Assembly (NCBI GenBank): GCA_032622095.1 | Contig: CP136067.1 | Location: 131,381,990-131,445,989 of the forward strand | Reading direction: 5' to 3' | Origin: Siphonodentalium dalli | Lineage: Eukaryota; Mollusca; Scaphopoda; Gadilida; Siphonodentaliidae | DNA length: 64,000 nucleotides | Part shown: positions 6,229-63,724 of the stretch, one piece after another | How the letters are laid out: every line of letters starts with the position of its first letter | How positions within the stretch are numbered: position 1 is the first letter of the stretch | Translations under genes and position numbers: made by a program | The notes under the pieces: model-generated | What the model was told of the DNA's origin: nothing | The model's input: only the letters and a program-made list of their open reading frames with translations | The model's database searches: none

Positions 6229-6652
6229 CCCTTTACCCAACAAAACGGCAAAAAACGCCCAAATAAAGCTTCAACAACCTAAAATATCTTCGGTCTGTCT
6301 CAATAACACCATACAAATATGGATATCATTGGAACCGGTTCATTGACTACATTGTGATGGTTACAGTTATGCCCTGTGCCAATGCATTCTCTTGTATATG
6401 CGAGTCGACCATAGGTCGCCTCGCATATATAAGAGAATGCATTGGCCTAAAAAAATCTTTTTTAACACTTTTTACCATTTTTTCTTACATTCTTTAACAA
6501 TTTTATAATTTCTTCTTACATTTTTTAACAATTTTATCATTTTTAATATGTGTTAAGCCAATGCATTCTCTTATATATGCTAGGCGACATATGGTCGACT
6601 CGCATATATAAGAGAATGCATTGGCACAGGGCCGTTCTGTTTGGGTAAAGGG
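6229..6652. mobile_element. piggyBac-like MITE, copy 1
   Basis: The ends are CCCTTTACCCAACA and its inverse, each flanked by TTAA (6225-6228 and 6653-6656). Inside each end sits a roughly 70-bp palindrome (6380-6450 and 6556-6628) built from GCATTCTCTTATATATGCGA and its inverse around a GTCGAC-containing loop. The middle is T-rich (TTTTAACACTTTTTACC-type). There is no transposase, so the element is non-autonomous. Copies 2 and 3 are at 41716-42171 and 49048-49439. Confidence 0.85.
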
Positions 6653-15264: not shown

Positions 15265-15440
15265 CCAACATCACGATCTTTACTCGACACAGCGCTAAAT
15301 AAAAGTGAATCTGATCGTCTCGGTCATATAGATCATTGTTAAGCGCAGACAGAGCAATATGCAGAAATTCCGCTCCAATGTGAACTTTAAATGATAGAGA
15401 TTGATCATGTCTTTGGTCGACTAATGTGGGAACATGTGGA
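15265..15440. repeat. Old dispersed repeat (copy 1), split by the Bcl-2 element
   Basis: The segment with CACGATCTTTACTCGACACAG, CGCAGACAGAGCAATATGCAG and GATCATGTCTTTGGTCG recurs at 18951-19150 and 22340-22760. Its continuation here resumes at 18729, after the 3.3-kb insertion, which confirms the insertion point. Confidence 0.65.
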
Positions 15441-15601
15441 TGATGATAAGCCCCCCGTTTGGGGGTATTTCAGGAACGATAACTCTATCCGAAGTACACG
15501 ACCTATATTCTCTGCAGTACTCCTGTTGGTGTTAGTCTAGACAGTTTGACCTATATTCTCCGCCCACGCATTGCATCATGGTCTATGTGTATACCGGTTG
15601 G

Positions 15602-15765
15602 GCAAAAACTTCAAAAACTTCAAAAATTAAAAAAATTAAAAAAATTTAAAAAATTAAAAAAATTAAAAAAAATTCCAAAACTTCAAAATTTTTCAAAAAC
15701 TTCACAAATTTCACAAATTTCACAAATTTCAAAAAACTTCAAAAATTAAACAAAATTCAGGATTT
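15602..15765. repeat. AAAACTTC-type minisatellite, left arm
   Basis: Imperfect 7-10 bp units (TTCAAAAAC, AAATTAAAA) fill this stretch. The inverse array, more regular (TTTTTGAAG, TTTTTGAAA), is at 18375-18575 in the other arm. ORFs rich in K, S, T and F on either strand are artefacts. Confidence 0.85.
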
Positions 15766-15986
15766 AGTCATAAATGTGACCCGCCATATCAAATCCAGTC
15801 GGAAGTCGGGATTTTTTTATCCTGTGCCAATGCATTCTCTTATATATGCGAGTCGACCAGCCGCCGCCGCCGCCGGTGGCGGCGGCGGCGGCGGCCGTAA
15901 TGCGCATGTCAACGCCGCTGCCGGCGGCGGCAACTACATAATCCTATGGCATGCAAAGAAATTGGCGGCGGCGGCGGCGGCGTTTG

Positions 15987-16032
<46 letters not shown>

Positions 16033-16039
16033 ATTGATA

Positions 16040-16480
16040 TTAATATGTTTGCCAATAATTTACACATCCATGAACCGATCTGAAAACATTATGGTTCATT
16101 GTCAACATTTTTGACGAGTAATTGTCAATATTTAGACATTCCTGGAAGAAATTATCCCAACTGCCTTCCCGTTCGACCCATTGGTCAGTGTATAATGTCA
16201 CGATAGTGTGTGCCCATTGCACAATTTCGCTGACCAATGAGAAGTCGTTGTCTTTGTATGCTTTTAAACACATTTTTCCTGTGAACAGGAATGCAGCCAT
16301 TATTCTCTCCCATGTGTAGGGGCCATCTTCCCGAAATATATTGTCCAACAAGTCACTAAATATATAGGGAAAATGATCCCTATCGTAGCCTATCGTACGG
16401 CTGCGTATGCCGCTCTCACCCCCCTCCCCCTCCGCGCGCGCGCCAATTTCACCAAAGAACAATGTCGGCACATTTAACAT
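16040..16480 (-). CDS. Truncated inverted Bcl-2-like ORF
   Basis: This 146-codon minus-strand ORF is the inverse copy of the last 116 codons of the plus-strand gene at 16606-17184. Only two residues differ over the shared part: G for A in the FRED(A/G)PYTWERI stretch, and F for L in WDN(L/F)FQEC. It keeps BH1 (TWERIMAAFLFTG) and BH2 (WVEREGSWDN). The first 30 residues come from unrelated spacer DNA, rich in G, E, R and A (GCGCGC and CCCCTCC tracts on the plus strand), and replace the BH4- and BH3-like helices. A protein from it would lack the N-terminal half of a Bcl-2 fold. It may be untranslated and matter only as the second arm of a hairpin. The start at 16480 is the only upstream ATG in frame. 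Confidence 0.55.
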   Translation of the reverse strand: MLNVPTLFFGEIGARAEGEGGESGIRSRTIGYDRDHFPYIFSDLLDNIFREDGPYTWERIMAAFLFTGKMCLKAYKDNDFSLVSEIVQWAHTIVTLYTDQWVEREGSWDNFFQECLNIDNYSSKMLTMNHNVFRSVHGCVNYWQTY

Positions 16481-16605
16481 CTAAAATTAGAAATGAAACG
16501 TGTCGGAACACGTTAATATCATGCATTTTGATTGGTTAACTGGCTCAACATAATAAAGGGACTGCTGATATTTTATGTCTGACGTAGAAGGGAAAAAAAA
16601 TAATA
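16481..16605. promoter_or_regulatory. Shared upstream region of two head-to-head ORFs
   Basis: These 125 bases separate the two start codons. They contain GATTGGTTAA (an inverted CCAAT box) near 16530 and TGACGTA, a CRE-like half site, at 16579-16585. No clear TATA box is placed for either side. The call is by position and motif only. Confidence 0.3.
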
Positions 16606-17184
16606 ATGGATACACAGCTCAAGAAATTGAACAGTATGGAAGTTGGCGCAGTTACGAAATATTTGATGAAAAGTTATGTCAGACATATCATTCTGAGAAA
16701 CGGCTTTCATTACCCAGACACTAATAACTTTTATTTATCAGAGTTAGAAATACGTGACTGTACCAGAAGAATACTTCAACAGCTGGAAAATTATAACATG
16801 TGGCTGTTAAATGAGCTGACAGGGAAATTGGACAGTTACGATAGGGATCATTTTCCCTATATATTTAGTGACTTGTTGGACAATATATTTCGGGAAGATG
16901 CCCCCTACACATGGGAGAGAATAATGGCTGCATTCCTGTTCACAGGAAAAATGTGTTTAAAAGCATACAAAGACAACGACTTCTCATTGGTCAGCGAAAT
17001 TGTGCAATGGGCACACACTATCGTGACATTATACACTGACCAATGGGTCGAACGGGAAGGCAGTTGGGATAATTTATTCCAGGAATGTCTAAATATTGAC
17101 AATTACTCGTCAAAAATGTTGACAATGAACCATAATGTTTTCAGATCGGTTCATGGATGTGTAAATTATTGGCAAACATATTAA
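16606..17184 (+). CDS. Bcl-2-family apoptosis regulator, intronless
   Basis: The 192-residue ORF follows the Bcl-2 fold in order. Residues 15-36 (VTKYLMKSYVRHI, then RNGFHYP) resemble the BH4 helix. Residues 51-68 (RDCTRRILQQLENYN) sit where BH3 belongs but lack the usual Gly-Asp pair. Residues 97-119 hold BH1 (NIFRED, then TWERIMAAFLFTGKMC, like the family's NWGRIVAFF.FG). Residues 146-160 hold BH2 (WVEREGSWDNLFQ, like W...GGW..F). Family members act at mitochondrial and ER membranes by binding BH3 helices. The C-terminus (FRSVHGCVNYWQTY) lacks the hydrophobic anchor most members have, so it may be soluble. The usual intron in the BH2 region is absent, which suggests a retrocopy or a gene captured by an element or virus. 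Start: first in-frame ATG, preceded by AAAAAATAATA. Pro- or anti-apoptotic function cannot be decided. Confidence 0.85.
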   Translation: MDTQLKKLNSMEVGAVTKYLMKSYVRHIILRNGFHYPDTNNFYLSELEIRDCTRRILQQLENYNMWLLNELTGKLDSYDRDHFPYIFSDLLDNIFREDAPYTWERIMAAFLFTGKMCLKAYKDNDFSLVSEIVQWAHTIVTLYTDQWVEREGSWDNLFQECLNIDNYSSKMLTMNHNVFRSVHGCVNYWQTY

Positions 17185-17215
17185 TAGCAATTGTGTGTTT
17201 ATATATATAGTAGAA

Positions 17216-17812
17216 GGTGACCCGACTTCGTCCGGGCTTTGACCTTGAATTGTCCATTTTGAAGGTCAAGTGGGGTCACGATTTGACCAGTCCAAAAACA
17301 CTGCCCGGACAAAAGTACCCGACAAACGTGCCCGTCGAAATCCATCCGGTTTTACCCGATTTGACCTTGAATTGATCATTTTGAAGGTCAAGGTCTGGTC
17401 GGGGTCACGATTGGACCCGTCCAAAACAATCAGTGGACAAAAGTAACAAAAGTAATCAAATTTCGTCGAAATCCCATCAAAATTGGCGATTTGACCTTGA
17501 AGTTACCCGATTTCAAGGTCAAGGTCACGTCGCACGGGCAAATGAATATGCTTATGAGACTCGCCATAAGAAAGTACCCCCACATACCAAGTTCCATCGA
17601 AATCCCGTGATATTCGGGCGTTTGACCTTAAAATGACCCGATTTCAAGGTCAAGGTCACGTCGCACGGGCAAATCAATAGGCCTATGTTAACCCCCGGCC
17701 GAAAATACCCCCACGTACCAAGTTTCATCGAAATCGGGTCGGTCGTTTTTGAGTTCATCGATTACACACACAGACACAGACAGATACACACACACACACA
17801 CAGATCTTTCAA
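17216..17812 (+). mobile_element. Retroelement 3' region with AAGGTCA repeats
   Basis: Three or four diverged subunits each contain TTTGACCTTGAA...TTTCAAGGTCAAGGTCACG. The last ends AAGTTTCATCGAAATCGG...GAGTTCATCGATTACACAC followed by a CA/CAGA tail. That layout resembles the 3' end of RTE-like LINEs or their SINEs in marine invertebrates. It interrupts the right arm of the Bcl-2 palindrome, so it came later. Confidence 0.45.
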
Positions 17813-17835
17813 AATATATAATAGATATATAGAGG

Positions 17836-17990
17836 ATATCCACACTTTTTCAGTGGATATGGGTTATATCTCATGAGTGATGGCAAACATTGAATTTCCA
17901 CGAGTGGCTTTAGCCACGAGTGGAAATTCAAATGTTTTGTCATCACGAATGAGATTTAACCCATATCCACTGAAAAAGTGTGGATATTCT
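17836..17990. mobile_element. Palindromic MITE
   Basis: The arms of about 75 bp begin GATATCCACACTTTTTCAGT and meet at GAATTTCCACGAGTGG-CTTTAG-CCACGAGTGGAAATTC. Pairing is nearly perfect. A related but diverged palindrome (GTGGATACCGAAAATTATCTC) is at 60868-60948. It is part of the later insertions in the Bcl-2 element. Confidence 0.75.
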
Positions 17991-18145
17991 GTGTATTATA
18001 TACTTTAGTTACTTGCCTATGGACCCAATGAATGTCAATACATCAGAAATTTCAAGCTGATATCACCCACTAGTGGGATATCACTCTAGAGTGGGATATC
18101 ACTTATATCTCACTGCTAAAACCTTATAATTCATGGGCAAGTATA
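17991..18145. repeat. Small fold-back with TATCAC repeats
   Basis: Short words GATATCAC, TAGTGGGATATCAC and AGAGTGGGATATCAC recur in alternating orientation at 18058-18110. A weak outer pair (TACTTGCC and GGCAAGTA) surrounds them. Confidence 0.45.
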
Positions 18146-18728
18146 TAATAAATATATATATATATATATATATATATCCGCAAACGCCGCCGCCGCCTTC
18201 AAACGCCGCCGCCGCCGCCAATTTCTTTGCATGCCATAGGATTATGTAGTTGCCGCCGCCGCCGGCGGCGGCTGGTCGACTCGCATATATAAGAGAATGC
18301 ATTGGCACCAGTTGGCACAGGATAAAAAAATCCCGACTTCCGACTGGATTTGATATGGCGGGTCACATTTATGACTAAATCCTGAATTTTGTTTAATTTT
18401 TGAATTTTTTTGAAATTTTTGAAATTTTTGAAGTTTTTGAAATTTTTTGAAGTTTTTGAAGTTTTTGAAATTTTTGAAATTTTTGAAGTTTTAGAAATTT
18501 GTGAAATTTTTGAAATTTTTGAAGTTTTTGAAATTTTTGAAATTTTTGAAGTTTTTGAAGTTTTTGAATTTTTTTGGACATGCCCAACCATGATGCAATG
18601 CGTGGGCGGAGAATATAGGTCAAACTGTCTAGACTAACACCAACAGGAGTACTGCAGAGAATATAGGTCGTGTACTTCGGATAGAGTTATCGTTCCTGAA
18701 ATACCCACAAACGGGGGGCTTATCATCA
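18146..18728. repeat. Outer part of the right arm
   Basis: In order: a TA tract (18147-18177), a GCC-rich block, half a hairpin module (18278-18310), the family-2 terminus ending GGGTCACAT near 18367, the TTTTTGAAG minisatellite, and the terminal 150 bases. Each part is the inverse of 15441-16026. A duplicated GTTGGCACAG near 18311 and fewer GCC units are the main differences from the left arm. Confidence 0.8.
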
Positions 18729-18734
18729 TGTGGA

Positions 18735-19317
18735 GTATGCTAATGTATCAGGTCCAGTGATATTTCTGATGGACTGCCGCCAATATAAGACGTCCTTACT
18801 CCTTATTGTGTATGATCAGAGTTGCTATGTGTACTCTCAATGTCTGAGGGAAACAAGGTCGTGTCTAGTAGAACCACATCTGCATGATAGGTTCATGGAC
18901 ATCATAGTAATGCAGTATGACCCACCAGCATCGTAGCAAATTAGCAGGACCACTTAACCAGGGATGTTGTCTGTAGATCATTGTTAAACGGCGCAGACAG
19001 AGCACTATGCGGACATTCCGCTCCAGTATTAGCCTCAGATGATCGAAATTTATCTTGTTTGTGATCGACGCTAATTGGGAAACATGTGGGGTATGTTAAT
19101 GTTTCAGGTCCCATGATATTTATGATGGACAGACGCCACACGAAATCGTTATTATTTATTATCAGAGACAACGGTTGTAATGATGTGTATTCTCAATATA
19201 CTCAATGTCTGAGTAAACAAGGCTGTGGCTATAGTAGTTGAAAATCTGGCAATTTTGATGGACAGAATCCAATAAGATGTCTTTGTAGTTTATTAAGCTG
19301 GAGGCACTTTCTTGTTA
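18735..19317. repeat. Continuation and second copy of the old dispersed repeat
   Basis: 18735-18950 continues the sequence interrupted at 15440. 18951-19150 is another copy (CGCAGACAGAGCACTATGCGG, then CATGATATTTATGATGGACAG). The phrase on ATTTCTGATGGACAG and GCCAA recurs at least five times between 18.7 and 22.8 kb, so this is a partly tandem family. No coding potential was recognised. Confidence 0.55.
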
Positions 19318-22375: not shown

Positions 22376-22930
22376 GTCTCGTTTATGTTGATTAGTGTTA
22401 AACAGCGCAGACAGAGAAATATACAGACATCCCACTCCGATCTTAACCTTAAATGATCGAGATGTATCTTATATCGAACGCCGTTAATCTGGAAACACGC
22501 GCAGGAGGTTATTTTATCGGGTCCCATGATATTTCTATTGGACAGTCGCCAACAGGACGCCCTTACTCCTACGAACGACACACATATGGAAACATTTGGA
22601 TTGGGCTAATACATTTGGTCCCATGATATTTCTAATGGACAGTCGCCAACATGATATCCTTTCTCAATTGAACGACACACATCTGGAAACATCTTGGATG
22701 AAGTTATTTTATTGGGTCCCATGATATTTCTGATGGACAGACGATATACTTAATGTTGTTTATCAGAATCAGAGAAAACGTGCGGTTTGATGTGTATTTT
22801 GAAAGCAATGGCAGCAGAACGATTAGCCTTCGAGATAAGCTATCAGAAGTGAAACAACTCTGATGAAGATCATAACACTAAGTTATTCAGTGACACTCAG
22901 CTCAGTATCTATAATAGAGTATATTTGTAT
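22376..22930. repeat. Third copy of the dispersed repeat
   Basis: GTTAAACAGCGCAGACAGAG at about 22397 and three CCATGATATTTCTGATGGACAG-like phrases (22520-22740) match 18951-19150. There is no ORF of note. Confidence 0.55.
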
Positions 22931-23383
22931 ATGTGACCCGCCATATCAAATCCAGTCGGGATTTGTTTTACCCTGTGCCAGTGCATTCTCTTATATATGC
23001 GAGTCGACCATAGGTCGGCTCGCATATATAAGAGAATGCATTGGCCTAACAATTTTTTATCATTTTTTTTAAATAAATGTTTCTTACAATTTTTAGGACA
23101 TAAAACAAAAATCCATTACCCTGCAGGGAGCCCCACACATATATAGAAGCACATAGAAGAGTGTCGTCTGTTCATGTTTGTCTGGGGCTCTGTATGGGTG
23201 AAATTATAAAATTGTTAAAGAATACAAGAACAAATTATTAAAATTGTAAAAAATTGTTAGGCCAATGCATTCTCTTATATATGCAAGGCGACTTATGGTC
23301 GACTCGCATATATAAGAGAATGCATTTGGCACAGGGTAAACAAAAATCCGACTTACGACTGGATTTGATATGGCGGGTCACAT
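22931..23383. mobile_element. MITE family 2, copy A
   Basis: The termini are ATGTGACCCGCCATATCAAA and its inverse, with inverted repeats of about 50 bp. Inside are two hairpin modules (22975-23045 and 23262-23334) nearly identical to those of the piggyBac-like MITEs, and a central part with CTGCAGGGAGCCCC. Flanks suggest a short AT duplication but no clear TSD. Copy B is 47505-47968. Confidence 0.8.
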
Positions 23384-23853: not shown

Positions 23854-26372
23854 ATGCTGCGAAACAACATGCATGTTCGTCCAAAGCATATGACCAAAGA
23901 GATACACGACACAAATGACCTTGATTCGTATTATCGCAATTGTGTCGACATTTTAATTGATAGCGCAGAAAAGACTATCCCTCCAATGTCCTACCACGCA
24001 CACTTGAAACCATACTGGAATAAACAACTCAGCAGTTTGAGCTCTGATTGCAAGTCAAAATACAAATTGTGGTCGCTTGCTGATCGCCCACGAGTATTTA
24101 CCTCCTCCTCGTATGTTCAGTATACAGACGCTAAAATGATTTTTAGGAAAGCTCATCGCTCTGCGTTCAATGCGTACCTATCCAATCAACAAAACAAACT
24201 TGAGTGCGACGCTGCCTCCAACCAAAGTCCTTCTGGCGGTCTATCAACCGAAACCGTTCGCATGTCTCTCAAATCGGATCGGTTATGGAATTCAATGGGT
24301 CTCTGACACGTGACGCAGATGAAACACTTTCTAGCTGGTCTGAGTACTTCAGAGAATTGTTCAATCCACCACCCCACTCTGAGCCAGAATTTGAGGACCA
24401 CGTTACCAGATAAGTTGTTAGCTGGGTTTCTCTTGCTGAAGATCCCGTGCATCCGAACTGCCCGCAATGTCAACCAGTCGAACTCACCGAAATCGTTCTT
24501 CATGTGAGGAAACTGAAAAAGAACAAAGCGGGTGGAGCAGATGACTTATTGAATGAACATTTGTTGCACGCTCCGACTTGCTTCATAGAATGCATCAAAA
24601 GACTATATGACGGTATATTCCGCATGGGGTGGATTCCACCAACGATGAAAGAAGGAATAGTCATTCCGTTATAAAAAGGACCGCCCAAACCACCGACATC
24701 TCCTGATAGTTACCGTGTTATAACACTTCTATCGGTCCTATACAAACTATTCGAGTCCATTCTGTTGAGCCGTCTTCTTCAAAGTCACCAAATGAAACGA
24801 TTTCCGAATGCACAACAAATGGGTTTTCAGAAAGGTATCAGCTGTTCGATGACGTCATTCATTCTCACGGAATCTATATCATATGCCAAAGACAATAACT
24901 CCAATTTATATGTTGCCTTCCTTGAGTCCAAGAAAGCCTTTGATAAAGTATGGCACACAAATTCATTCAACTCGGATTTTCGCCACACCTTGTCAGTTTG
25001 TTGGAGAACATCCATTCGGATGTGACTAGCAAAGTACTATATGACGGCCGCATGTCTCTAAGTTTCAAAATACTGCAATCTACTCGACAAGGTGACGTTC
25101 TGTTACCTCTCTGCTATCGCGTCTTCACAGACGACATACTTAACGAACTAGCAACTTCTCCATACGGACTAAGAATCTGCAATATCCCATGTGGCGCTCC
25201 TACTACTGCCGACGACATCGCCCTTCTGTCGCTATCGAAATCCGGTCTCGACTCCTTGTTGAACATATGTGTGAAATATAGCAGGCGGTGGCGATTCGAA
25301 TTCTCCTCCACGAAGAGCAAAACTGTTGTATTCAACGAGAATAAAAACTCATATGAGCGCTCGGGAAGGATATGGAGGTTGGGCAATCAAACTATTCAGG
25401 AAGTTACAGAATGTGCCCATCTTGGTTTAATTCAGGACAAGTTTGCGAATCAGGTCAATTCCGCCTCTTCTGTGTCGACAAAAATGAGGAATAACTTTTT
25501 CAATATCATGGGTAACAAACTTATGAAATCCACTACATCCATCACCATGACAAATGTCCTCAAAACTGTTGTTCTACCGAGAGCTCTCTACGGTGTCGAG
25601 GTGGTTCCTTTTGATCAAAGTTCCGCCATCACCATTATGAACAAAGCCGCCAGAACATGTCTCAAATACGCACAATCCCTTCCAAAACGAGCGTCAACTA
25701 GGCTATCGCTAGGTCTTCTTGGATTTCTACCAATTGAATATCAACTGCATATCAAAAAAACTTTGCTTCCTGGGACGTCTTATCCATCTACCGTTCGGCC
25801 ATCAATTACCATTACGACTGTTTCACCTGAAAGCACACCTGTACAGACTATACAATCGCTCCAGTGGTTTTGTACATGAAATGTTCTCCATATTAGCCAA
25901 ATACGATATTTTGAACTATTTGAACGACTACCTGGACATTGGGGTATTCCCGGAACTGTCAACGTGGATAACTCTTGTGAAGGCAGCTGTCAGGGGAACG
26001 TTCATTTCCTCGTGGCAGACCAAAGTTTCGACCGATACATCCTTGCGAATTCTGTGGAAAGTTCACACTAATCCCCTATCAAACTGGGCAGTCTGCAATC
26101 TTCTCCATGGAAACGCTCACATGTTGAAATATCTCAACAGGACTACCTATGCCAACAATTTAGTGTGTCATCTCTGCAGCGAAGTGTTCTCGAACGAAAT
26201 CGACCACGCCATGTTCGTATGCTCTTCTCCAGTCGCACTCATTATTAAAAACTCTTTTTGGGAAGGGATTATCTCTCGTTTCGGCATACCCGAATATTTT
26301 CACCTTGCGTCGTTAGCCAGAGATGACCTGGTAGCAACCCTCCTCGGAAGTTCTCTGGAACCCCTAACATAA
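23854..26372 (+). pseudogene. Non-LTR retrotransposon reverse transcriptase, decayed
   Basis: Coding remnants run through three frames. 23878-24200 is the linker (HLKPYWNKQLSSLSSDCKSK, a pattern seen upstream of RT in CR1/Jockey-type elements). 24204-24940 includes FWRSINRNRS and KKNKAGGADDLLNEHLL (RT region). 24950-25650 has STRQGDVLLPLCYRVFTDDI and TADDIALLS, the catalytic YADD box with Tyr replaced by Thr. 25719-26372 ends with CHLCSEVF..EIDHAMFVC, a zinc-binding-like C-terminal motif. At least three frameshifts (near 24200, 24945 and 25740) and stops at 24411 and 24672 make it inactive. The 5' endonuclease region is missing or unrecognisable. The clade is probably CR1/Jockey-like, but this is not certain. 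Confidence 0.85.
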
Positions 26373-39520: not shown

Positions 39521-41518
39521 ATCGAACTTCTCGAATATAGATCATATGAAGTCGGCTGCATATATAACTAGAATGCACTCAGAGAGATGCCAACGTGCGC
39601 AAAAATGTAATAAACAATAATTTAAAAAATAATTTCACTGTATTTTACTTAATTTATTTTATTTAATTAATGTTAGCAAAAAAAAGACAATTACCATTTC
39701 TCATTTCATCACAGATAAAAGGCAAATTACTATATTAATCATTTAAGTAATTAAAACCAATTCCATGTTGCCTAAAGAATGAGACTTTAATATCGATTAC
39801 ATTTTTTTCAGCGGCATATTTTCATTTTCATTTTCCGATAGTCAAAGTTGACCAAAGGAGCAATTATAAGAAATATTTAATACTATTTGTGTAAATATTG
39901 ATAACAGCCAATATGCAATAATAAATATCAATAATTAATCAATAATTAATCAATAACGATCATTTTATGTAATAATAAACTCTTCAAACGGTGTTTGTGT
40001 CAACAACTGCGTTTTGTTTTGTGTTACGTCATTCGTCGTATTTGACCCGGAACTCGGCTGAAGGTTAGGCTATTCAGCCTATTGCGTCGAATTACGAAAT
40101 CGCGTTTTGAATGTCTCTCTTTTCCCGCACGATAAAAAGAGGTCTTCGCACGAACCAAAAATGATAAAACTTCCCAATTATAAGTAAAAATACCCAAATG
40201 AAGGAGTCTATGTTGGTCCCGAAGGAGTCTATAGACTCTTTGATGTAGAGTTCTGATGGAGGAAATGTAGGTCGATCTATTTTTGTCATAACTCTGACGT
40301 ATTTTGACCTGGGAGAAAAAATCGAAATCGAGGCTCACTACGAGCATGCCAGTTTTAAATATAGAAACAGGGAATCCCGAAAAATGGCGATATCGGCGAC
40401 AAACAAATAATCGAAAACAACACATAAAATAAACATAACAAAAACGCGGAACAGTAAAAATGTCAGAACGCCACGAGGTTTTACGTCGTTTTTGGTGACG
40501 TCATGGAGTGAAACGGAGTAGGGTGACACCAACCTACGAATCTGTCTGATCGCCATACTGTTGCGCGAGCGCACGTAATGAAACATACATTGGGTTATGT
40601 AGCTGCACAATATACTAACTGATTATGATACTGAAACAATGTTGATGTTATAACGTATAATATTCTGCGTGTCGAATTTAGAAAATTGCCGAATATTTAT
40701 ACTGAAGACGAAAACGTGACACTTGACAAATGAGCCAGAAGCAGTTTCTTATCCGATTAACCAAATTGCACCTTGACGCGATAATTATAAGTGACGAGTT
40801 ATAACTTAGACAGTATGCAAAGGTGTTATCTTTATATACTGTGAATTATAACAGGTATAGAAACACTTTCCATGTCCGATGGAACGTCACGACCAACTGT
40901 TTCGCGATTTGACCATTGAATATATACTATTCGTCACCATTCATGGGACTGAGCAAATAAATTACACGTTATTCAGTCTTATTCAAAAGTATATTATAAA
41001 ACAGATTGAATGATAAATGTTAAATCAAACATACCGAATAATACATAACTTATGAAAACAATTATGACATCACCGATCGAGGATTAACAGTCTCCCTCCA
41101 TTCTGACGCAAATAACGCACTCTTTCATTGACATCTTAACGTGTATCCCTACATTACCTTCATCTGTAAATACTGTATTTGTTCTGTGTATACCATTTGT
41201 ATTATATTGTATTGCAGGCAGGAAGTCTAACTCTTTTTGTGAATTGTCATTTGTTTGATGAAAAGGGGCGTCATTAAGTTAGAGCCCCAATCCAATGGGG
41301 TATTTGGCTAATAAAATATGTTTAAACTAACTCTTTCGCCAAATCAGTCCACGACAGACCAGCCATGGGCATTTGTGGTACAGATACATGGACACGGGTG
41401 ATACATTTGAAGAAATATTCACAAATTACATGCATGACATGTACACTATGCAAGTTTTAGAATCCTTTGTCAACGAGTCAATAATATCATATATGGAGCA
41501 GTATTCATTGTTCACAAA
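39521..41518. other. AT-rich, no gene supported
   Basis: Minus-strand ORFs at 40024-40610 (133 and 90 codons) have no recognisable motif. CAATAATTAATCAATAATTAAT near 39930 is a small tandem repeat. Confidence 0.4.
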
Positions 41519-42594
41519 TTGTCAACATGGTTCAGAAAAAAACTGTCATGTAAAACACAGTTAATAGAATACCTGTCTCATGTCACTGCCGAACTAGATC
41601 AGGGGGAGCCTGTAGATGCCATTTACTTGGATTTTCAAAAGGCATTTGACAGCGTTCCGCACGAAAGACTGCTTCATAAATTAAAGGCATATGGTATTGA
41701 AAACAATGTTCTTAACCCTTTACCCAACAAACCGGCCAAAAGCGCCCAAATAAAGCTTCAACAGCTTAAAATATTTTCGGTCTGTCTCAATAACACCATA
41801 CAAATATGGATATCATTGGAACCGGTTCATTGACCACATTGTGATGGTTATAGTTATGCCCTGTGCCAATGCATTCTCTTATATATGCGAGTCGACCATA
41901 GGTCGCCTCGCATATATAAGAGAATGCATTGGCCTAAAAAAAAAAAAATTTAACACTTTTTACCATTTTTTCTTACATTCTTTAACAATTTTAGAATTTT
42001 TTCTTACATTTTTTAACAATTTTTATAATATTTTTCTACATTCTTTGACAATTTTATCATTTTTAATATGTGTTAAGCCAATGCATTCTCTCATATATGC
42101 GAGGCGACCTATGGTCGACTCGCATATATAAGATAATGCATTGGCACAGGGCCCTTCTGTTGGGTAAAGGGTTAACTGGATTAAGGAATTCTTAAGTGGG
42201 ATAGTACAAAGGGTTCGTGTAAATTCGGCATATTCTAAATGGAGCCAGGTGACAAGTGGAGTCCTTATCTTGGGGCGATCTTATCGAGGTTTATAAATAC
42301 CTGAATGGAATGTATAACACGGACCCAAGTAATTACTTTGTATTCGCTGACTACACAAGGACCAGAGGATATAAACTCAAATTACAAGGGACAAAATACA
42401 AAAAGGATATCCGGAAATATTTTTTCACAAATCGTGTAATTTCTCATTGGAACAGTTTACCTGATTTCGTAGTCGAAAGTGGGTCATTGGAAGATTTCAA
42501 GAAAGGCATAGACTCATATTGCTATGCCCGTAAATACAGCCATGATTTTGAAGACCAGTGCCATTTAATTTCATTTCTGATGTATGATATTTAA
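41519..42594 (+). pseudogene. CR1/L2-like LINE polymerase, split by a MITE
   Basis: Before the insertion the frame reads DAIYLDFQKAFDSVPHERLL (RT motif with the first catalytic Asp). After it comes NWIKEFLSGIVQRVRVNSAY, then VTSGVL. Next is an internal deletion that removes the YADD region. 42256-42594 encodes the C-terminal part, GDLIEVYKYLNGMY, RTRGYKLKL, RKYFFTNRVISHWNSLPD. The element is inactive: split, internally deleted and 5'-truncated. It differs from the 24-26 kb element at every comparable motif, so it is a different family. Confidence 0.85.
41716..42171. mobile_element. piggyBac-like MITE, copy 2
   Basis: CCCTTTACCCAACA and the inverse, with exact TTAA at 41712-41715 and 42172-42175. 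Removing it and one TTAA restores the LINE reading frame (IENNVL then NWIKEF), confirming the boundaries. Hairpin modules are at 41865-41933 and 42078-42150. Confidence 0.9.
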
Positions 42595-44487: not shown

Positions 44488-45307
44488 AGTATTAGAACAT
44501 TTCGTAATGTATGTTTATGAATGTTTAGTATTAGAACATTTCGTAATGTATGTTTATGAATGTTTAGTATTAGAACATTTCGTAATGTATGTTTATGAAT
44601 GTTTAGTATTAGAACATTTCGTAATGTATGTTTATGAATGTTTAGTATTAGAACATTTCGTAATGTATGTTTATGAATGTTTAGTATTAGAACATTTCGT
44701 AATGTATGTTTATGAATGTTTAGTATTAGAACATTTCGTAATGTATGTTTATGAATGTTTAGTATTAGAACATTTCGTAATGTATGTTTATGAATGTTTA
44801 GTATTAGAACATTTCGTAATGTATGTTTATGAATGTTTAGTATTAGAACATTTCGTAATGTATGTTTATGAATGTTTAGTATTAGAACATTTCGTAATGT
44901 ATGTTTATGAATGTTTAGTATTAGAACATTTCGTAATGTATGTTTATGAATGTTTAGTATTAGAACATTTCGTAATGTATGTTTATGAATGTTTAGTATT
45001 AGAACATTTCGTAATGTATGTTTATGAATGTTTAGTATTAGAACATTTCGTAATGTATGTTTATGAATGTTTAGTATTAGAACATTTCGTAATGTATGTT
45101 TATGAATGTTTAGTATTAGAACATTTCGTAATGTATGTTTATGAATGTTTAGTATTAGAACATTTCGTAATGTATGTTTATGAATGTTTAGTATTAGAAC
45201 ATTTCGTAATGTATGTTTATGAATGTTTAGTATTAGAACATTTCGTAATGTATGTTTATGAATGTTTAGTATTAGAACATTTCGTAATGTATGTTTATGA
45301 ATGTTTG
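44488..45307. repeat. 39-bp tandem array, 21 identical copies
   Basis: The unit AGTATTAGAACATTTCGTAA plus TGTATGTTTATGAATGTTT is repeated 21 times with no visible difference between copies. Because 39 is 13 codons, a 282-codon ORF (44507-45355) is open with the cycle MYVYECLVLEHFV. I see no start context, domain or homology supporting a protein. Confidence 0.97.
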
Positions 45308-47504: not shown

Positions 47505-47968
47505 ATGTGACCCGCCATATCAAATCCAGTCGGAAGTCGGGATTTGTTTTACCCTGTGCCAATGCATTCTCTTATATATGCGAGTCGACGATATGTCGCC
47601 TCGCATATATAAGAGAATGCATTGGCATAACAATTTTTTATCATTTTTTTTAAATAAATGTTTCTTACAATTTTTAGGACATAAAATAAAAAAAACATCC
47701 ATTACCCTGCAGGGAGCCCCACGCATATATAGAAGCATATAGAAGAGTGTCGTCTGCTCATGTTTGTCGGGGGCTTTGTACGGGTTAAATTATAAAATTG
47801 TTAAAGAATACAAGAACAAATTATTAAAATTGTAAAAAATTGTTAGGCCAATGCATTCTCTTATATATGCGAGGCGACCTATGGTCGACTCGCATATATA
47901 AGAGAATGCATTGGCACAGGGTAAACAAAATCCCGACTTCCGACTGGATTTGATATGGCGGGTCACAT
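47505..47968. mobile_element. MITE family 2, copy B
   Basis: It has the same termini (ATGTGACCCGCCATATCAAA) and layout as 22931-23383, including CTGCAGGGAGCCCC and two hairpin modules (47557-47625 and 47847-47920). The two copies are more than 90% alike by eye. Confidence 0.85.
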
Positions 47969-49047: not shown

Positions 49048-49439
49048 CCCTTTACCTAACAAACCGGTCAAAACCGGCCAAATAAAGCTTCAACAGCCTA
49101 AAATATCTTCGGTCTGTCTCAATAACACCATACAAATATGGATATCATTTGAACCGGCTCATTGACCACATTGTGATAGTTACAGTTATGCCCTGTGCCA
49201 ATGCTTTCTCTTATATATGCGAGTCGACCATAGGTCGCCTCGCATATATAAGAGAATGCATTGGCCTAAAAAAAATCTTTTTTTAACACTTTTTACCATT
49301 TTTTCTTACATTCTTTAACAATTTTATAATTTGTAATGTGTTAATTCAATGCATTCTCTTATATATGCGAGGCGACCTATGGTCGACTCGCATATATAAG
49401 AGAATGCATTGGCACAGGGCTCTTCTGTTGGGTAAAGGG
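49048..49439. mobile_element. piggyBac-like MITE, copy 3
   Basis: Ends CCCTTTACC and the inverse, with TTAA at 49044-49047 and 49440-49443. The central T-rich part is shorter than in copies 1 and 2. Hairpin modules are at 49195-49265 and 49349-49420. Confidence 0.85.
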
Positions 49440-50181
49440 TTAAGGACACAAAATATCGGATAAAATTTGTGTAATTTCGTACTTTAAGTTTGGACTGTCC
49501 CACTAGAACCAAAGAAATATATTGCGAAACGGTGTGATTTGGTTCTCCGATTATTTTATCAACACAAATGACTAAACGCATATGGACGACATTGTCACGA
49601 CAACACGCATGACAAGTCAAACACAAGAGTTATAATTTGCTACAATTTTCACGAATAGCTTGCGAAAATTCATTTTGGCTGGAAAACCCAACGCTAAATA
49701 TAGAAACCACAGACTAATACCCAGCCGGTGACAGATTCAGAAAAGATGGATGACTGGTGCGCTTTGGTAGATATTGTAGTTATCTTTGGAGGGAAATGTT
49801 CAGATAATACGTTCAACAAATGATTTATTACCTAAACATTTCCATCAATAAAAAGGGTTCCTTCTGCACTTTTATGTATCTGCCGACTGGTTTTATCACC
49901 TTAACATCCTTCCAAACGAACAATAGACCATTCCGTGAGAGTGGCTAAAATGCAAGCTTGGCAGTTTTTAAGGCAGGTGACTAAAAGACAAGCTTGGCGT
50001 TTTCAAATTTTTAAAAAGCCTGTTAAACGCTGTTTTCGGGTGAATTATGCGGGAATAGCACCAGTTAATTACTTATATGGCCCATTTTCGTAAATTAATC
50101 GACAATAGTGGGGCAGTAATGTCCCCGATTGGTTGGTTAATAGGGGGCGTGGTCACAAAATCAAAACATCGTCTTTTTACG

Positions 50182-50443
50182 GGGAGCGGGTCGATTCGGT
50201 CCAGGGCTCTTTCGGTCTTGGACTTTTCGGTCCAGGGCTCTTTCGGCCGGGCTCGTTCGGCCGGGCTTGTTCGGCCCCTATTCAATTCGGGTAATTAGGT
50301 AGTGTTGGGTGTTAATTGGACGGCATGTTAATTGCCTTTGATTTGGGACCGGTCTTTTGATGACAATGGAGATTTATGTTTGTAATTAACGTTTTATTCG
50401 CAACCATAGTAATGGGTATACACACATAGTATTAACACTGACC
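50182..50443. mobile_element. 262-bp insertion with 9-bp TSD
   Basis: The direct repeat CTTTTTACG (50173-50181 and 50444-50452) flanks this segment, and the opposite arm (56738-56760) has the uninterrupted sequence with one copy. It starts GGGAGCGGGTC and ends TGACC. Inside, GGTCCAGGGCTCTTTCGG and GGCCGGGCTCGTTCGG are tandem. It is probably a small Mutator-like MITE. Confidence 0.7.
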
Positions 50444-50556
50444 CTTTTTACGCAGATTTCTTGTCGGTTTTTTGTCGATTTCTCTTTTTAAACATCAGTT
50501 GGACTAAGTTTTTTATTCGAAACATGTTGAATGGTTATCATTTATCACTCTCATAG

Positions 50557-51405
50557 TCGAGCTTGGCGGTTTTGAACATTATATGCGAAGAATTTTTTAC
50601 TTTTAGATGACCGACCACCGAACCGCCAACCTCGAATAAAAAATCAAAATATTAAGCTGAATTTTCGCCGATTTCTCGTTTCTAAAACACGTTCCATCTA
50701 GTTTTTATGTAAAAACGTGTAAAATGATTTTCATTCTTCACAAATATAATCGGGCTTGGCGGGTTTGAACATTATATACAAAGAATTTTTGACTTTTAGA
50801 TGACCGACCACCGAACCGCCAAGCTCGAATAAAAAATCAAAATATTAAGCTGAATTTTCGCCGATTTCTCGTTTCTAAAACACGTTTCAGCTAGTTTTTA
50901 TGTAAAAATGTGTAAAATGATTATCATTCTTCACAAATATACTCGAGCTTGGCGGTTTTGAACATTATATACGAAGAATTTTTGACTTTTAGGTGACCGA
51001 CCACCGAACCGCCAAGCTCGAATTAAAAATCAAAATATGAAGCTGAATTTCCGTCGATTTCTCGTTTCTAAAACACGTTCCAGCTAGTTTTTATGTAAAA
51101 ACATGTAAAATGATTATCATTCGTCACAAATATACTCGAGCTTGGCGGTTTTGAATATTTTATATTAAGAAATTTTGACATTTGATTACCGACCACCGAA
51201 CCGCCAAGCTCGAATTTTAAATAAAAATATGCAGCTGAATTTCCTGAGATTTCTCGTTTCTAAAACATGTCCCAGCTATTTTTCATGTAAAAATATGTAA
51301 AATGATTATCGTTCTTCACATATATACTCGAGCTTGGCGGTTTTTAACATTGTGTACTTAGAATTTTCGACTTTTATATGACCGCTCACCGAACCGCCAA
51401 GCCAA
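50557..51405. repeat. About 193-bp tandem units in the left arm
   Basis: The phrase GAGCTTGGCGGTTTTGAAC recurs at about 50557, 50750, 50941, 51134 and 51328. Each unit contains the pair CTTGGCGGTT ... AACCGCCAAG about 60 bases apart and a TTTCTCGTTTCTAAAACACG block. Inverse units are at 53180-53645 and 56200-56650. Units could be subterminal transposase-binding sites. Confidence 0.85.
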
Positions 51406-51673
51406 TGCAAAATGATACCCAGACCAAACCGAGGCAAAATGATACCCACCAAATATTGTCAACGTGTACCCATTAATGATCGTCCATGCAACTAATCAAA
51501 CTTGTTCAATTATGTTATATTCTTGTTTCGATGTAGCATTGTGATTTAAATGGCACGTATATATAAGATAAGTTAGTCGTGTGTGGAACGGTCACAGTGA
51601 TAATATACATGAATTCCAGAGGGCAAACTGTAATATAATTTAATTCTCCATCCACATTAAATTATTAGTATTA

Positions 51674-51912
51674 TTATTTGTTTTTTATATAGAACCGAGT
51701 TCTTGTGATAAGAGGGTCCTTCTTTGGAAAGTTGTTAGGCCCTTTGTTAACCCAACGATGCTGATCAGCTTTCCAATCGTCACGCTTAACTGGGTCATAA
51801 TTTTTGTAGATATATAACGTGCCACCGATTGGCTTAATGGGTGGGGTGTTACCAACCTTGACCAGTCGATTTTGGTTTCATGAAAGTATGTCATCGCATC
51901 GTCATAATGACC
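51674..51912 (-). pseudogene. C-terminal remnant of an unknown protein
   Basis: On the minus strand HYDDAMTYFHETKIDWSRL is followed, one base out of frame, by NTPPIKPIGGTLYIYKNYD, PVKRDDWKADQHRWVNKGPN and NFPKKDPLITRTRFYIKNK, then a stop. The mix of aromatic, charged and Gly/Pro residues and a single frameshift indicate a former gene. It occupies the loop of the Mutator-like element, so it may be the end of an element protein. I do not recognise the family. Confidence 0.5.
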
Positions 51913-52892
51913 GTCTCATATAAAGAGCGTTCACTTTACCGTGACTTCATGTATTTTCTCGTTTTGTTTTTTTGTAAAGTAAGCTGAACAATCATTTGAT
52001 ATCGAATAGGACAACGCTTATGTGCCATGAAACTACTAAATCGTAGTGCGATACAACAATTAAATTAGTGACAAATAGAATACATTTATGATTTTATTTG
52101 TTGTCGTGGAATGATGTCGAAGTTAACTATAGTGTTTATATTAGGCTCTTCTAATATCACAATTATTTGCATCACCTAAATGTTTTTTCTTCACAATATA
52201 CTGTAGACAAAATATATTATTTGACTTCCCATGAAAAAACGGACCAATAACCGGAGTACAGTTTAATGCTATATACATATGCAATTTTATGTATTACTCA
52301 CCATTGCCACTATCTTTCTGGAACTGATGTTGTTCGCTCACCAGCGGGAATTTATTGAGCTGTGTCAAAACAAAATCATGAGTTGGGGTGCAGATTCCCA
52401 CGTTGAACCAACGCGTTTAGTTTGATAATTCTGACAGAGGGTATGGATCTATTCTGTAACGGAGTATTCGTGTCGATTATAATTCACTTCATCCTGGTGA
52501 GTAAACTACTCGAATTGCAACTAACCGGTTCTTGGCTAATCAGTGATATATATAAAATAAATGAAACCTAAATTAATGGGGACTGATGAAAGAAAACTCA
52601 AGAAAGCTAAGAAAAATAAACATTATCTCAAGCCTTTCCCATCTGATCGATACTCCTCCCTCACTTATCGGGGAAGTGACATGTCGCCAAAGAGGAAAAG
52701 ACTTCATATAAGCCATCGGGCTTGTTGTCTGGTCCTCATTTCCATACATTATCTCTTCTATTTTGCATATTAATTTTGTATCACCTGTACACGTGCATAT
52801 TATGTTATGTTGGAAATAAAAATATGTTTACACTAAAAAGAAAGAAAAAATGACGTCTCAGGCCCTTTCAAATCCTCCTGGGTCAAATCCCC
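51913..52892. other. Loop of the Mutator-like element
   Basis: A plus-strand ORF at 52561-52773 (KPKLMGTDERKLKKAKKNKH, then RYSSLTYRGSDMSPKRKR) is Lys-rich and unrecognised. No DDE catalytic motif or zinc finger was seen. A C9 run is at 52890. Confidence 0.4.
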
Positions 52893-54544
52893 CCCCCCAA
52901 ACAAATAATAATACTAATAATTTAATGTGGATGGAGAATTAAATTATATTACAGTTTGCCCTCTGGAATTCATGTATATTATCATTGTGACCGTTCCACA
53001 CACGACTAACTTATCTTATATATACGTGCCATTTAAATCACAATGCTACATCGAAACAAGAATATAACATAATTGAACAAGTTTGATTAGTTGCATGGAC
53101 GATCATTAATGGGTACACGTTGACAATATTTGGTGGGTATCATTTTGCCTCGGTTTGGTCTGGGTATCATTTTGCATTGGCTTGGCGGTTCGGTGAGCGG
53201 TCATATAAAAGTCGAAAATTCTAAGTACACAATGTTAAAAACCGCCAAGCTCGAGTATATATGTGAAGAACGATAATCATTTTACATATTTTTACATGAA
53301 AAATAGCTGGGACATGTTTTAGAAACGAGAAATCTCAGGAAATTCAGCTTCATATTTTGATTTAAAATTCGAGCTTGGCGGTTCGTTGGTCGGTCATCAA
53401 ATGTCAAAAATTCTTAATATAAAATATTCAAAACCGCCAAGCTCGAGTATATATGTGACGAATGATAATCATTTTACATGTTTTTACATAAAAACTAGCT
53501 GGAACGTGTTTTAGAAACGAGAAATCGACGGAAATTCAGCTTCATATTTAGATTTTTAATTCGAGCTTGGTGGTTCGGTGGTCGGTCACCTAAAAGTCGA
53601 AAATTCTCAGTATACAATGTTCAAAACCGCCAAGCTCGGCTATGAGAGTGATAAATGATAATCATTAAACGTGTTTTCAGATGCAAACTATGTGTAAATG
53701 GTGTTTAAGAAGAGAAATCGGCCAAAAATCGACAAGAAATAGGGTCCTACTAAACAACGAACACAAACGAACACAAACGAACATAAACGAACACAGGTCC
53801 AAAAAGCGGAGTAGAAGGGTGAAATTTGGTTTGTGGGTGCGCGTGGGTCCATTCTATGTGTATGTGGTGTTATTTCCAACTTTGATGATTTATTTTTTGA
53901 GTTATTAGCATTATTTGAATACAAAACTACTAAACAACGAACACAAACGAACATAAGATTAGCGGCAGTGCAGAGGCTACCATGCAGGTGTTAATTAACT
54001 ACGCTTACTCTGTCTCCTTGTTTTTATTGCAAGATGATTGTCAATTTTATCACTGATGGCAATAAAAACACGGGGAAACATCAGAGGTCGGCGTTTTAAT
54101 GCATAGCTAACAAAACATTTGAGTGAATGTGAGTGAGTCATTGTTGTCAGTCTCTGAGATGACTATATATATTTTCTCAGTCTCGGAGATCACTCTGGTA
54201 AATGCTATTTCTGCTTGCTTTCCCGATACACGCATACACTATGTACCAGGCATCTTAAGGAAAATCTCAATCGTAATTTAAGTAAAACAGACAGTGATCA
54301 AACTGTCAATACGATGGAAAAGTATTCAATAGCGAGAGCGGCTTGGTAACAATAGAAAACAAAATCATTTATGACGAATTACAGACAGACATAATTGACA
54401 AATATATGTGACAACAGACGATACCTTACATTTATGGAAAGACTAAAGACGAAAGTTTTCAATGCTAGAAAACAAAATTCAACAATTCCGAAATGTTGGA
54501 CAAATAACAATTATGAAAGCATTAAAGGTGCGGGAGTCCTTGGC

Positions 54545-54790
54545 AGTGGGTATATGCTGTGAAAATTTTCCAACGGTCAAAAACCGACACAAAAAGGACA
54601 ATGTAGACAGACTGTGTCCGTATACAAATAAGAACTTATTATATATCGCATAAACAGTATGTTATTGTCATATGTTTGACCATTGTGTAAACAAAAGCAT
54701 AAAAAGTAACTTTCCTGGTGTTTGTTTATATTATGATGGTAAACATAAAGAGCGTTCTTTGTTGCTGAATTCCTGATATGTGTCTGCTCA
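54545..54790. repeat. Inverse copy of the 38-kb dispersed repeat
   Basis: AATGTAGACAGACTGTGTCCG, AAGCATAAAAAGTAACTTTC and TGATGGTAAACATAAAGAGC match 38048-38300 in reverse orientation. Confidence 0.7.
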
Positions 54791-54799
54791 AGATGGTAG

Positions 54800-55170
54800 T
54801 TATCAACAAACGGAAATTTCAATTCAGCAGCCCATATTTCGCAACCATACAACAGAATAGGCATTATTAATTTGTCAAACAATTTACATTTAGTACTGAG
54901 AGACAATTCTGTCTGTGAATTCAATGAATTCGTCATGAAATACATAGCCTTTGAAGCTCGCCCGCTCAAGTTTTCACAAGCTCTCTCCATTTTCCCGTCA
55001 AAACTGAAAATGAGACCCAAGTATTTATATTCTTCAACTACTTCTAACGACTCACCATTTATATAAAACTTATTTATGATAGCATGCTGTTTACACGATG
55101 AACGAAACTGTATGCGTTTTAGTGTTTTTCTGTTTACGGTGATTGGAACAAATATGAATATTTTCGACAA
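54800..55170 (-). pseudogene. Non-LTR reverse transcriptase fragment
   Basis: The minus-strand frame reads RKTLKRIQFRSSCKQ, then VVEEYKYLGLIFSFDGKM, then KCKLFDKLIMPILLYGCEIW, the thumb-region pattern after the catalytic box of non-LTR polymerases (YLG..i..dG and L...L..P.L.YG.E.W). Only about 120 codons remain and the frame then runs into the dispersed repeat. It is a truncated relic, distinct from the other two LINE families here. Confidence 0.75.
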
Positions 55171-55189
55171 CTAAGGCCTCCCGTGTCTT

Positions 55190-55880
55190 TAATAATATAA
55201 TTAACAAAAAAATTGACTGAGTTTACAGACAATTTAAATGAAACAGTGACTGACCAACTGCGTGACATTCGAGTGGAGGGGATTTCACATTACCAGGCAT
55301 TGCATCATCTTTGGAAGTGAGACACGAAATTTAAACAAATATATGACGGCCGAACAACGAGACAGACTAATGCGAAGACTTCTTAATTTTGTGAGTGACA
55401 ATTCCAAATTCCAAACTTCAACTGACGACAATTAACTATACCCAAAACTACCGCTCTCGCAAAAAAAAACTGGACAAAAAAAAGGAAAGAGTGAAGGCAT
55501 CAAAAACCAAGACGATCACCAATAAACGACAGAAAGTTAGCATATAGTATGGAAATATACATAGAGGATCTCACATGAGTTTCTATTTTATACGGAATTT
55601 ATCAACCGAGTTCACTAAATTCGATTTGAGTCGAGGTTTACCGAGTGCACTGACTTCAAGGAGAACAAACTCTGCCCATCGTTCCGCCGGGGCCGAGTCA
55701 GTGTAAAATAATATATAAATATTCGATTGTATATAAAACAAACTTTGATTCTAGTACCTGAAGCTCTACTGAAAGAGCAGTGTGATGTCAGGGAAGTTAA
55801 ACGAAGTAATAATAAGACAAACTAACTAAGTCAAAACAACTCAGTGACAAAGAGACAGAGTATAAGCCATAGAGAATGCG
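55190..55880. other. Interior of nested element 1, unidentified coding scraps
   Basis: A plus-strand mini-ORF from about 55344 reads MTAEQRDRLMRRLLNFVSDN. At 55640-55700 the peptide TDFKENKLCP followed by FRRG is visible and recurs in nested element 2 near 57885-57930. The two nested elements thus share coding sequence of unknown identity. Confidence 0.35.
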
Positions 55881-57302
55881 GTAGTTAATTAACACCTTTA
55901 TTAACACCTTTGCTAATCTCATGTTCGTTTGTGTTCGTTGTTTAGTAGCTTTGCATTCAAATAATGCTTATAACTCGAAAAATAAGTCATCAAAGTTGGA
56001 AATAACACCACATACACATATAATGGACCCACACGCACCCACAAACCAAATTTCACCCTTCTATTCTGCTTTTTAGACCTGTGTTCGTTTATGTTCGTTT
56101 GTGTTCGTTTGTGTTCGTTGTTTAGTAGGACCGAAGAAATCGGCGTAAAAAAGCGAGGTTTTCATTCGGTTAACACACCCCCTATTAACAAGCCATCGGT
56201 CATCAAAATGTCCAAAATTCTTAATATAAAATATTAAAAACCGCCAATCTCGAGTATATTTGTGAAGAATGATAATCATTTTACACGTTTTTACATAAAA
56301 ACTAGATGGAACGTGTGTTGAAAACGAGAAATCGGCGAAAATTCAGCTTAATATTTTTATTTTTTATTCGAGCTTGGCGGTTCGGTGGTCGGTCATCTAA
56401 AAGTCAAATATTCTTTGTATATAATGTTCAAAACCGCCAAGCCCGATTATATTTGTGAAGAATGATAATCATTTTACACGTTTTTACATAAAAACTTGAT
56501 TGAACGTGTTTTAGAAACGAGAAATCGGCGAAAATTCAGCTTAATATTTTGATTTTTTATTCGAGCTTGGCGGTTCGGTGGTCGGTCATCTAAAAGTCAA
56601 AAAATCTTCGCATATAATGTTCAAAACCGCCAAGCTCGACTATGAGAGTGATAAATGATAACCATTCAACGTGTTTCGAATAAAAAACTTAGTCCAACTG
56701 ATGTTTAAAAAGAGAAATCGACCAAAAACCGACAAGAAATCTGCGTAAAAAGACGATGTTTTGATTTTGTGACCACGCCCCCTATTACGGTGCGTATAAA
56801 AGCCGAACACAACCGAACATAACCGAACACAAGTCCAAATAATGGGAAATATAACGAATAAAGTTCATAGGCGTGTGTATTCATGTTCACACTATTAATA
56901 TACGAAGTTTGGTGGAGTTCGGGCCAATAATAAGTGTTTTATTCGATATTTTGTAAAACGCGTTCAGTGTTCGGCATAGAAAAGCCGAACACAAGCTTCT
57001 CTCGTGTATTAGTCAATAACGGCTGTCTAGCTAGGTGATAATTAATATCAGATATATGGTCACTAAGCCGAAAGGCTTTAATTGTTGTTGGTGGCGGTCT
57101 CTCACCTATTGTAGTTCAGTGTTTTGACAGTTAGTTGCAATCAGTATTTGATGGCGCCTACTATTATAGAAACAACATGCTTTTGGTGGGCCCCGCCATG
57201 AAAGACAACGTACGATTGTAAAAACAATATTTGAGTGACAAGAAAGTGAGTTCATGGTGCAATATCCGAGAAGTTCTATATAAGAATGTGGTATGATATT
57301 AT

Positions 57303-57569
57303 TTGGCAAATCACAATCTCAGCAGTATTTGGAATTCTGATCACAGGTCTGAAAATTCTACAATGCCTAATTCCAAATTGATTTACCCATGTGGTGTTTG
57401 TTCCCAGGAATGTCACGAGATACGCAGCATCGGCTGCGATATGTGTGACCGATGGTTTCATGTAGAGTGCCAGCAATTGAAAATCAATGACTTTTTACTA
57501 AGTCATCGCTTGGTGACCAATTTAATTTATGCCAGAATCTTCGGCAAATTTCGACTGACGGACGTTTGA
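57303..57569 (+). CDS. PHD-like zinc finger protein of nested element 2
   Basis: The ORF of 88 codons holds residues 29-58, YPCGVCSQECHEIRS and GCDMCDRWFHVECQQL. This is Cys-x2-Cys, Cys-x2-Cys, then His-x2-Cys, the first three zinc ligand pairs of a PHD finger. The final Cys pair is not in frame, so the domain is probably broken or continues out of frame. PHD fingers occur in several invertebrate transposon proteins, including some CR1-type LINEs. Whether this is element-encoded or captured is unknown. The start is the only upstream ATG; expression is not shown. Confidence 0.55.
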   Translation: MANHNLSSIWNSDHRSENSTMPNSKLIYPCGVCSQECHEIRSIGCDMCDRWFHVECQQLKINDFLLSHRLVTNLIYARIFGKFRLTDV

Positions 57570-63715: not shown

Positions 63716-63724
63716 TAATGATTC

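Follow-up and report, generated by a model that had tools for sequence, protein, structure and literature searches.

Whether a short fold-back transposon can carry a gene of the Bcl-2 family is the question raised by a segment at 15441-18728 of a 64-kb window from the scaphopod Siphonodentalium dalli (GenBank assembly GCA_032622095.1, contig CP136067.1, positions 131,381,990 to 131,445,989 of the forward strand; coordinates below count from the first letter of this window). The segment is an insertion of ~3.3 kb with inverted ends, bracketed by two copies of TGTGGA. It is best regarded, with modest confidence, as a copy of a non-autonomous fold-back DNA transposon with long terminal inverted repeats (TIRs), which holds one intact intronless Bcl-2-like gene and was built by the copying of one arm onto the other.

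That the segment was inserted is the firmest part of this account. The two copies of TGTGGA, taken as a target site duplication (TSD), lie at 15435-15440 on the left and 18729-18734 on the right, and the chance of a 6-bp identity at a fixed boundary is ~3e-4. An alternative reading of the TSD as 8 bp, CATGTGGA, requires unequal ends, and the 6-bp duplication with perfect ends is preferred. When the flanks are rejoined with a single TGTGGA, they align without a break across the junction to 18974-19222 on the plus strand, an uninterrupted copy of the host repeat that serves as a paralogous empty site, and to a second copy at 22379-22570 (the blastn pieces of these alignments show 80% identity over 165 bp and 73% over 195 bp). 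This continuity with two copies of the host repeat identifies the segment as an insertion that interrupted a dispersed repeat. The original prediction had described both the 6-bp TGTGGA flank and an insertion into an otherwise continuous dispersed repeat, and both descriptions hold. Its claim of matching inverted ends is likewise borne out, as the outer TIRs (left, 15441-15582, plus strand; right, 18587-18728, minus strand) are identical at 141 of 142 bases in inverted orientation, which rules out a chance origin. Inverted similarity extends further inward, at 78% over 644 aligned columns (15440-16027 against 18141-18729). The terminal 12-mer, TGATGATAAGCC, has two exact matches, at 15441-15452 (plus) and 18717-18728 (minus), and no further exact copy in the 64-kb window. 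With up to two mismatches allowed it has seven window matches against 6.41 expected by chance; thus the 12-mer by itself is uninformative, and it is the length of the inverted match that constitutes the evidence. Further inverted pairs of at least 60 bp at 85% identity or more are present in the window, so that inverted arms alone would be unremarkable.

Within the insertion lies an intact, intronless open reading frame (ORF) of 192 codons at 16606-17184 on the plus strand. Residues 54-154 of its product match the Pfam Bcl-2 family, PF00452, with an E-value of 6.6e-14 and a score of 52.7 bits against a curated cut-off of 31.4. Among the best 60 of 123 matches in the PDB, Bcl-xL chains are matched at 5e-8 and weaker, mainly over residues 86-158, and Bax (residues 47-158) and the Bcl-2-like 4 chain 6wgz (residues 18-157) also appear. 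The Bcl-2 homology regions BH1 and BH2 can be aligned to Bcl-xL over residues 71-141; BH2, WVEREGSWDNLF, is close to WIQENGGWDTF. Like the cellular proteins Bcl-xL (5fmk) and Bax (4s0p), with which it aligns up to BH2, the predicted protein retains the W and R of BH1 and the WD of BH2. In dinucleotide-preserving shuffles of the element, none of 300 reached 192 codons, although the longest ORF came to 179 codons (mean 95). Length alone is therefore only fair evidence, and it is the PF00452 match that settles homology and rules out a chance ORF. Assignment to the Bcl-2 family is secure for residues 54-154 and weaker upstream. A 192-codon ORF of this family had been proposed from its BH1 and BH2 motifs, with a profile search named as a possible refutation; that search proved positive, and both motifs align, BH1 in altered form.

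The original prediction had pictured an intact gene carried as cargo between two ends. The intact gene is indeed inside, but its 3' half is also present in the mirrored arms, and this inverted partial copy, together with the repeats interrupting the right arm, had been overlooked. The copy, made up of 3' gene sequence and the adjoining 3' flank, lies at 16015-16387 on the minus strand and is identical to 16837-17209 at 369 of 373 positions; two of the four differences are coding. It contributes to a truncated Bcl-2-like ORF of 146 codons (16040-16480, minus strand), which still matches PF00452 at 4.1e-13 despite missing the gene's N-terminal part. The fold-back layout thus comprises a left arm of 948 bp (15440-16387), a loop (16388-16836, plus strand) holding the 5' flank and N-terminal part of the gene, and a right arm with insertions (16837-18729). 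The inner junction of this copy (16379-16397, minus strand) contains the 9-bp sequence TACGATAGG twice, at 16379-16387 and 16389-16397, the repeats standing 10 bp apart, and this duplication resembles the filler that end joining leaves behind. Within 16015-17209, Bcl-2 sequences in sense and antisense orientation are separated by 449 bp and form a natural hairpin, from which small RNAs directed at the gene might arise.

The left arm contains the TIR, a TA tract and the 3' half of the gene, and the right arm mirrors these. Inward of the outer TIR, the left arm continues on the plus strand with a region made up mainly of an A-rich 9-bp tandem tract (15583-15759, the tract itself at 15603-15759), then a segment at 15760-15861 containing the outer part of a TA-flanked family of miniature inverted-repeat transposable elements (MITEs) found elsewhere in the window, and lastly a GC-rich CCG/GGC segment with a (TA)n tract at the inner end of the TIR (15862-16026). 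The inner right TIR (18141-18586, minus strand) holds the corresponding TA tract, GC-rich part, MITE-like part and 9-bp tandem tract. Specifically, 15761-15859 matches the outer part of the MITE family, whose TIR begins TGTGACCCGCCATATC, and this part of the arm has a sub-palindrome in common with shorter copies at 6373-6630, 41860-42150 and 49192-49418; on the strength of this match the arms are composite. The family itself is ~460 bp long and TA-flanked, with the TIR TGTGACCCGCCATATCAAATCCAGTCGG and nested palindromes, and copies lie at ~22932-23382 and 47506-47967.

Base divergence between the arms is ~1%, simple-repeat parts excepted. Piecewise, the outer TIR differs at 1 of 142 positions, the middle at 0 of 113 with one 10-bp indel, and the gene part at 4 of 373. 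Differences are more frequent in the GC-rich part, where 2 of 77 aligned positions mismatch and there are large indels, and in the 9-bp tandem tract, where 14 of 148 aligned positions mismatch and indels also occur. Both gene copies run into the TA tract. On the left, this tract passes directly into the TIR sequence CCGCAAACGCC, whereas on the right ~930 bp of repeats interrupt it ahead of CCGCAAACGCC. These repeats, absent from the left arm, occupy 17210-18140 on the plus strand and consist of ~131-bp units of the TGACCTTGA type with an (AC)n tail, and of palindromes, one of 170 bp at 17827-17996 and one more; repeats of the TGACCTTGA/AAGGTCA kind are known from mollusc genomes. The possibility that the TIR and the gene are two unrelated inverted repeats was dropped as the simplest account, since both meet in one TA tract and have diverged to a similar degree.

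As for the means of movement, the 40 stop-to-stop ORFs of at least 45 codons that overlap the element, other than the Bcl-2-like one, were scanned against Pfam, and no transposase, polymerase, integrase or capsid match was found among them. Three weak matches, to PF21940 (0.086), PF08156 (0.01) and PF18832 (0.038), each fell under the curated cut-off; the stretches matching the first two lie in the repetitive part with the 9-bp tract, and the ORF matching the third extends past the right end. The 64-kb window gave 0 matches to Rfam.

These features allow the construction of a model for the origin of the element. The model proposes that an ancestral, probably larger element had the gene beside its right end, and that a break or excision was followed by a repair in which the right arm was copied onto the left side by way of the shared TIR. 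The copying would have continued through into 3' gene sequence until end joining closed the product, leaving the 9-bp duplication. The outcome would be a hairpin with 948-bp arms from which any transposase gene on the left had been removed, and later insertions of MITE-like and tandem repeats may have split the right arm. Movement would depend on a transposase provided in trans. Transcription of the gene would start from a short 5' region of its own, where ATTGG at 16531 and ATAATAAA at 16550 might form a promoter of the CCAAT/TATA type, a weak suggestion drawn from the motifs, and the gene product would act in a Bcl-2-like manner, perhaps to block cell death.

Several observations weigh against this model. 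The glycine of the BH1 motif NWGR in Bcl-xL is replaced by E104, giving TWER, so that a key site is changed; unlike cellular multidomain Bcl-2 proteins, the protein also has no clear BH3 core and no hydrophobic tail (among 19-residue windows that begin beyond residue 150, hydropathy peaks at 0.01). Such a C-terminal membrane anchor is common in the Bcl-2 family, though not universal. Residues 1-85 have five matches in the PDB, the best with an E-value of 0.38, and no Bcl-2 protein among them, and an AlphaFold2 model built from a two-row alignment is helical, but with a mean pLDDT (predicted local distance difference test) of 42.7 it is too poor for use. Both coding differences between the two gene copies are amino-acid changes, and there is one copy of the element from which to judge selection. 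Expression of the gene is doubtful, because promoter motifs are common in the element (ATTGG alone occurs nine times) and no AATAAA or ATTAAA is present on the plus strand over the ~960 bp from the stop codon to 18147. The direction of copying, from right to left, is proposed because the whole gene sits on the right. Finally, with a single copy at hand, arrival of the gene and conversion of the arms could both postdate the landing of the element, and joint movement of the gene with the ends may be offered as a candidate reading of one copy. Thus, of the original interpretation, the fold-back type, the insertion with a TSD and the intact Bcl-2-family ORF stand, and the gene as cargo stays a candidate.

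The most serious alternative, possible though not favoured, is that the gene came second: an empty fold-back would have landed in the host repeat, a Bcl-2 copy, either a retrocopy or a duplicated segment, would have fallen into it, and conversion between the arms would have mirrored the 3' part. Other repeats are piled up in the right arm, which makes the element a ready target, and the ORF is intronless, as are apoptosis genes of molluscs (IAPs, inhibitors of apoptosis) that are ascribed to retroposition in the portions of the source drawn upon here (PMC8917759). However, the stretches 16388-16605 and 17185-17300 have no 9-mer in common and 17185-17300 has no run of six A, and therefore no simple sign of retrocopy insertion is seen in those stretches. 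In addition, the mirrored part of the gene and the TIR are similarly diverged.

A second alternative, which appears unlikely, holds that the segment is a deletion derivative of a large DNA element of the Polinton or adintovirus kind that carried an accessory Bcl-2 homologue, with only the ends and that gene remaining. Polintons (Mavericks) have 6-bp TSDs, long TIRs and 5'-AG termini, and adintoviruses encode Bcl-2 homologues. The 6-bp TSD and TIRs of several hundred bp found here fit such elements; the ends, however, begin TGATGATAAGCC and not AG, and no core gene was found, polymerase, integrase and capsid matches being absent from the 40 ORFs scanned. Viral contigs also gave nothing: the searches for relatives of the Bcl-2 protein returned 4 and 35 pattern matches with 0 confirmed, and a 21-mer from the TIR returned 0 matches, although a eukaryotic element would hardly be expected there. 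The same reservation applies to the prokaryote genome contigs, in which 31 pattern matches to the protein yielded 0 confirmed relatives, and to a MITE 28-mer with 0 matches in the prokaryote genome and viral contigs. Membership among the Polintons was thus considered and not adopted, as neither ends nor genes fit. Membership in the Mutator group was similarly set aside on the length of the duplication, which is 8-10 bp in that type and here 6 bp, or 8 bp (CATGTGGA) with unequal ends. That the gene is an ordinary, immobile host paralogue flanked by inverted repeats through happenstance is very improbable, for although the ORF is intact and Bcl-2-like and the window has other long inverted pairs, the TSD and the empty-site paralogues show that a dispersed repeat either received the 3.3 kb as an insertion or took up an insertion within which it grew.

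The window contains further repetitive features. A larger nested fold-back of ~9.2 kb occupies 49937-59100, with tandem units of ~193 bp inside and inverted pairs at 49937-50168 and 58872-59100 (96%), 50444-51000 and 56196-56752 (95%), and 50852-51683 and 52899-53730 (95%). A fragmented non-LTR (long terminal repeat) retroelement at 24675-26372 shows RVT_1 matches and a zf-RVT match under the cut-off, and a reverse transcriptase fragment at 41438-41833 is also under the cut-off. Two tandem arrays are present, one of 39-bp units at 44488-45306 (21 copies, 100% identical, with one open frame per strand), which is either very recent or kept homogeneous, and one of 66-bp units at 62273-63717 (22 copies, 96%), which is contained in a minus-strand frame running 493 codons from stop to stop.

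Returning to the fold-back copy with its Bcl-2-like gene, several known systems provide points of comparison. Pack-MULEs capture genes mostly as fragments. The element resembles them in being non-autonomous, with a captured gene between TIRs, and differs in that the ORF is whole and is partly duplicated as a palindrome. Closer in structure is Tetris, a fold-back element of Drosophila virilis with target duplications of 8-9 bp, or 9-10 bp in rearranged copies, whose complete copies are without conserved ORFs as far as the portions of the report drawn upon here describe them (PMC4079207). Judged against that partial description, the present element shares with Tetris very long TIRs with internal tandem repeats, the absence of a transposase, a TSD and end sequences shared with a MITE, and departs from it in its intact Bcl-2-like gene, partly copied into the arms, and in its 6-bp TSD, or 8 bp with unequal ends (PMC4079207). 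A BCL2-like motif has been reported in Burro, a group of giant LTR retroelements of planarians, in a source whose relevant passages also name Pack-MULEs among the Pack-type gene-capturing DNA transposons (PMC6431247). Burro, as described in those passages, is thus likewise a transposable element with a BCL2-like motif, but it is of the LTR type with the motif in a polyprotein, whereas the element here is of the DNA type with a free-standing gene (PMC6431247). No description of a fold-back or other DNA transposon with a Bcl-2 gene was found in the open-access literature searched, outside which most subscription journals and preprints lie. The earlier statement that no class of short fold-back transposons is described as carrying such a gene therefore holds within that literature, but must be qualified by the BCL2-like motif of Burro, at least as the passages cited report it (PMC6431247). 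The present element is an unusual one, a variant of known fold-back elements, and Burro is a precedent for the occurrence of a BCL2-like motif in a transposable element.

A broader proposal, speculative and rather doubtful, is that the copy belongs to a family of fold-back transposons that spreads complete Bcl-2-like genes, in which the gene would serve as a death-blocking accessory and double-stranded RNA from the copied arm would act as a built-in brake. If other copies carry the gene, they would represent a DNA transposon that distributes regulators of cell death and would thus offer a route for the expansion of apoptosis genes, as well as a possible means by which an element protects the cells in which it moves. 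Such copies would also provide a clear case of fold-back formation, in which the passage from TIR into gene arm and the duplication at the junction would make a template-switch model directly testable.

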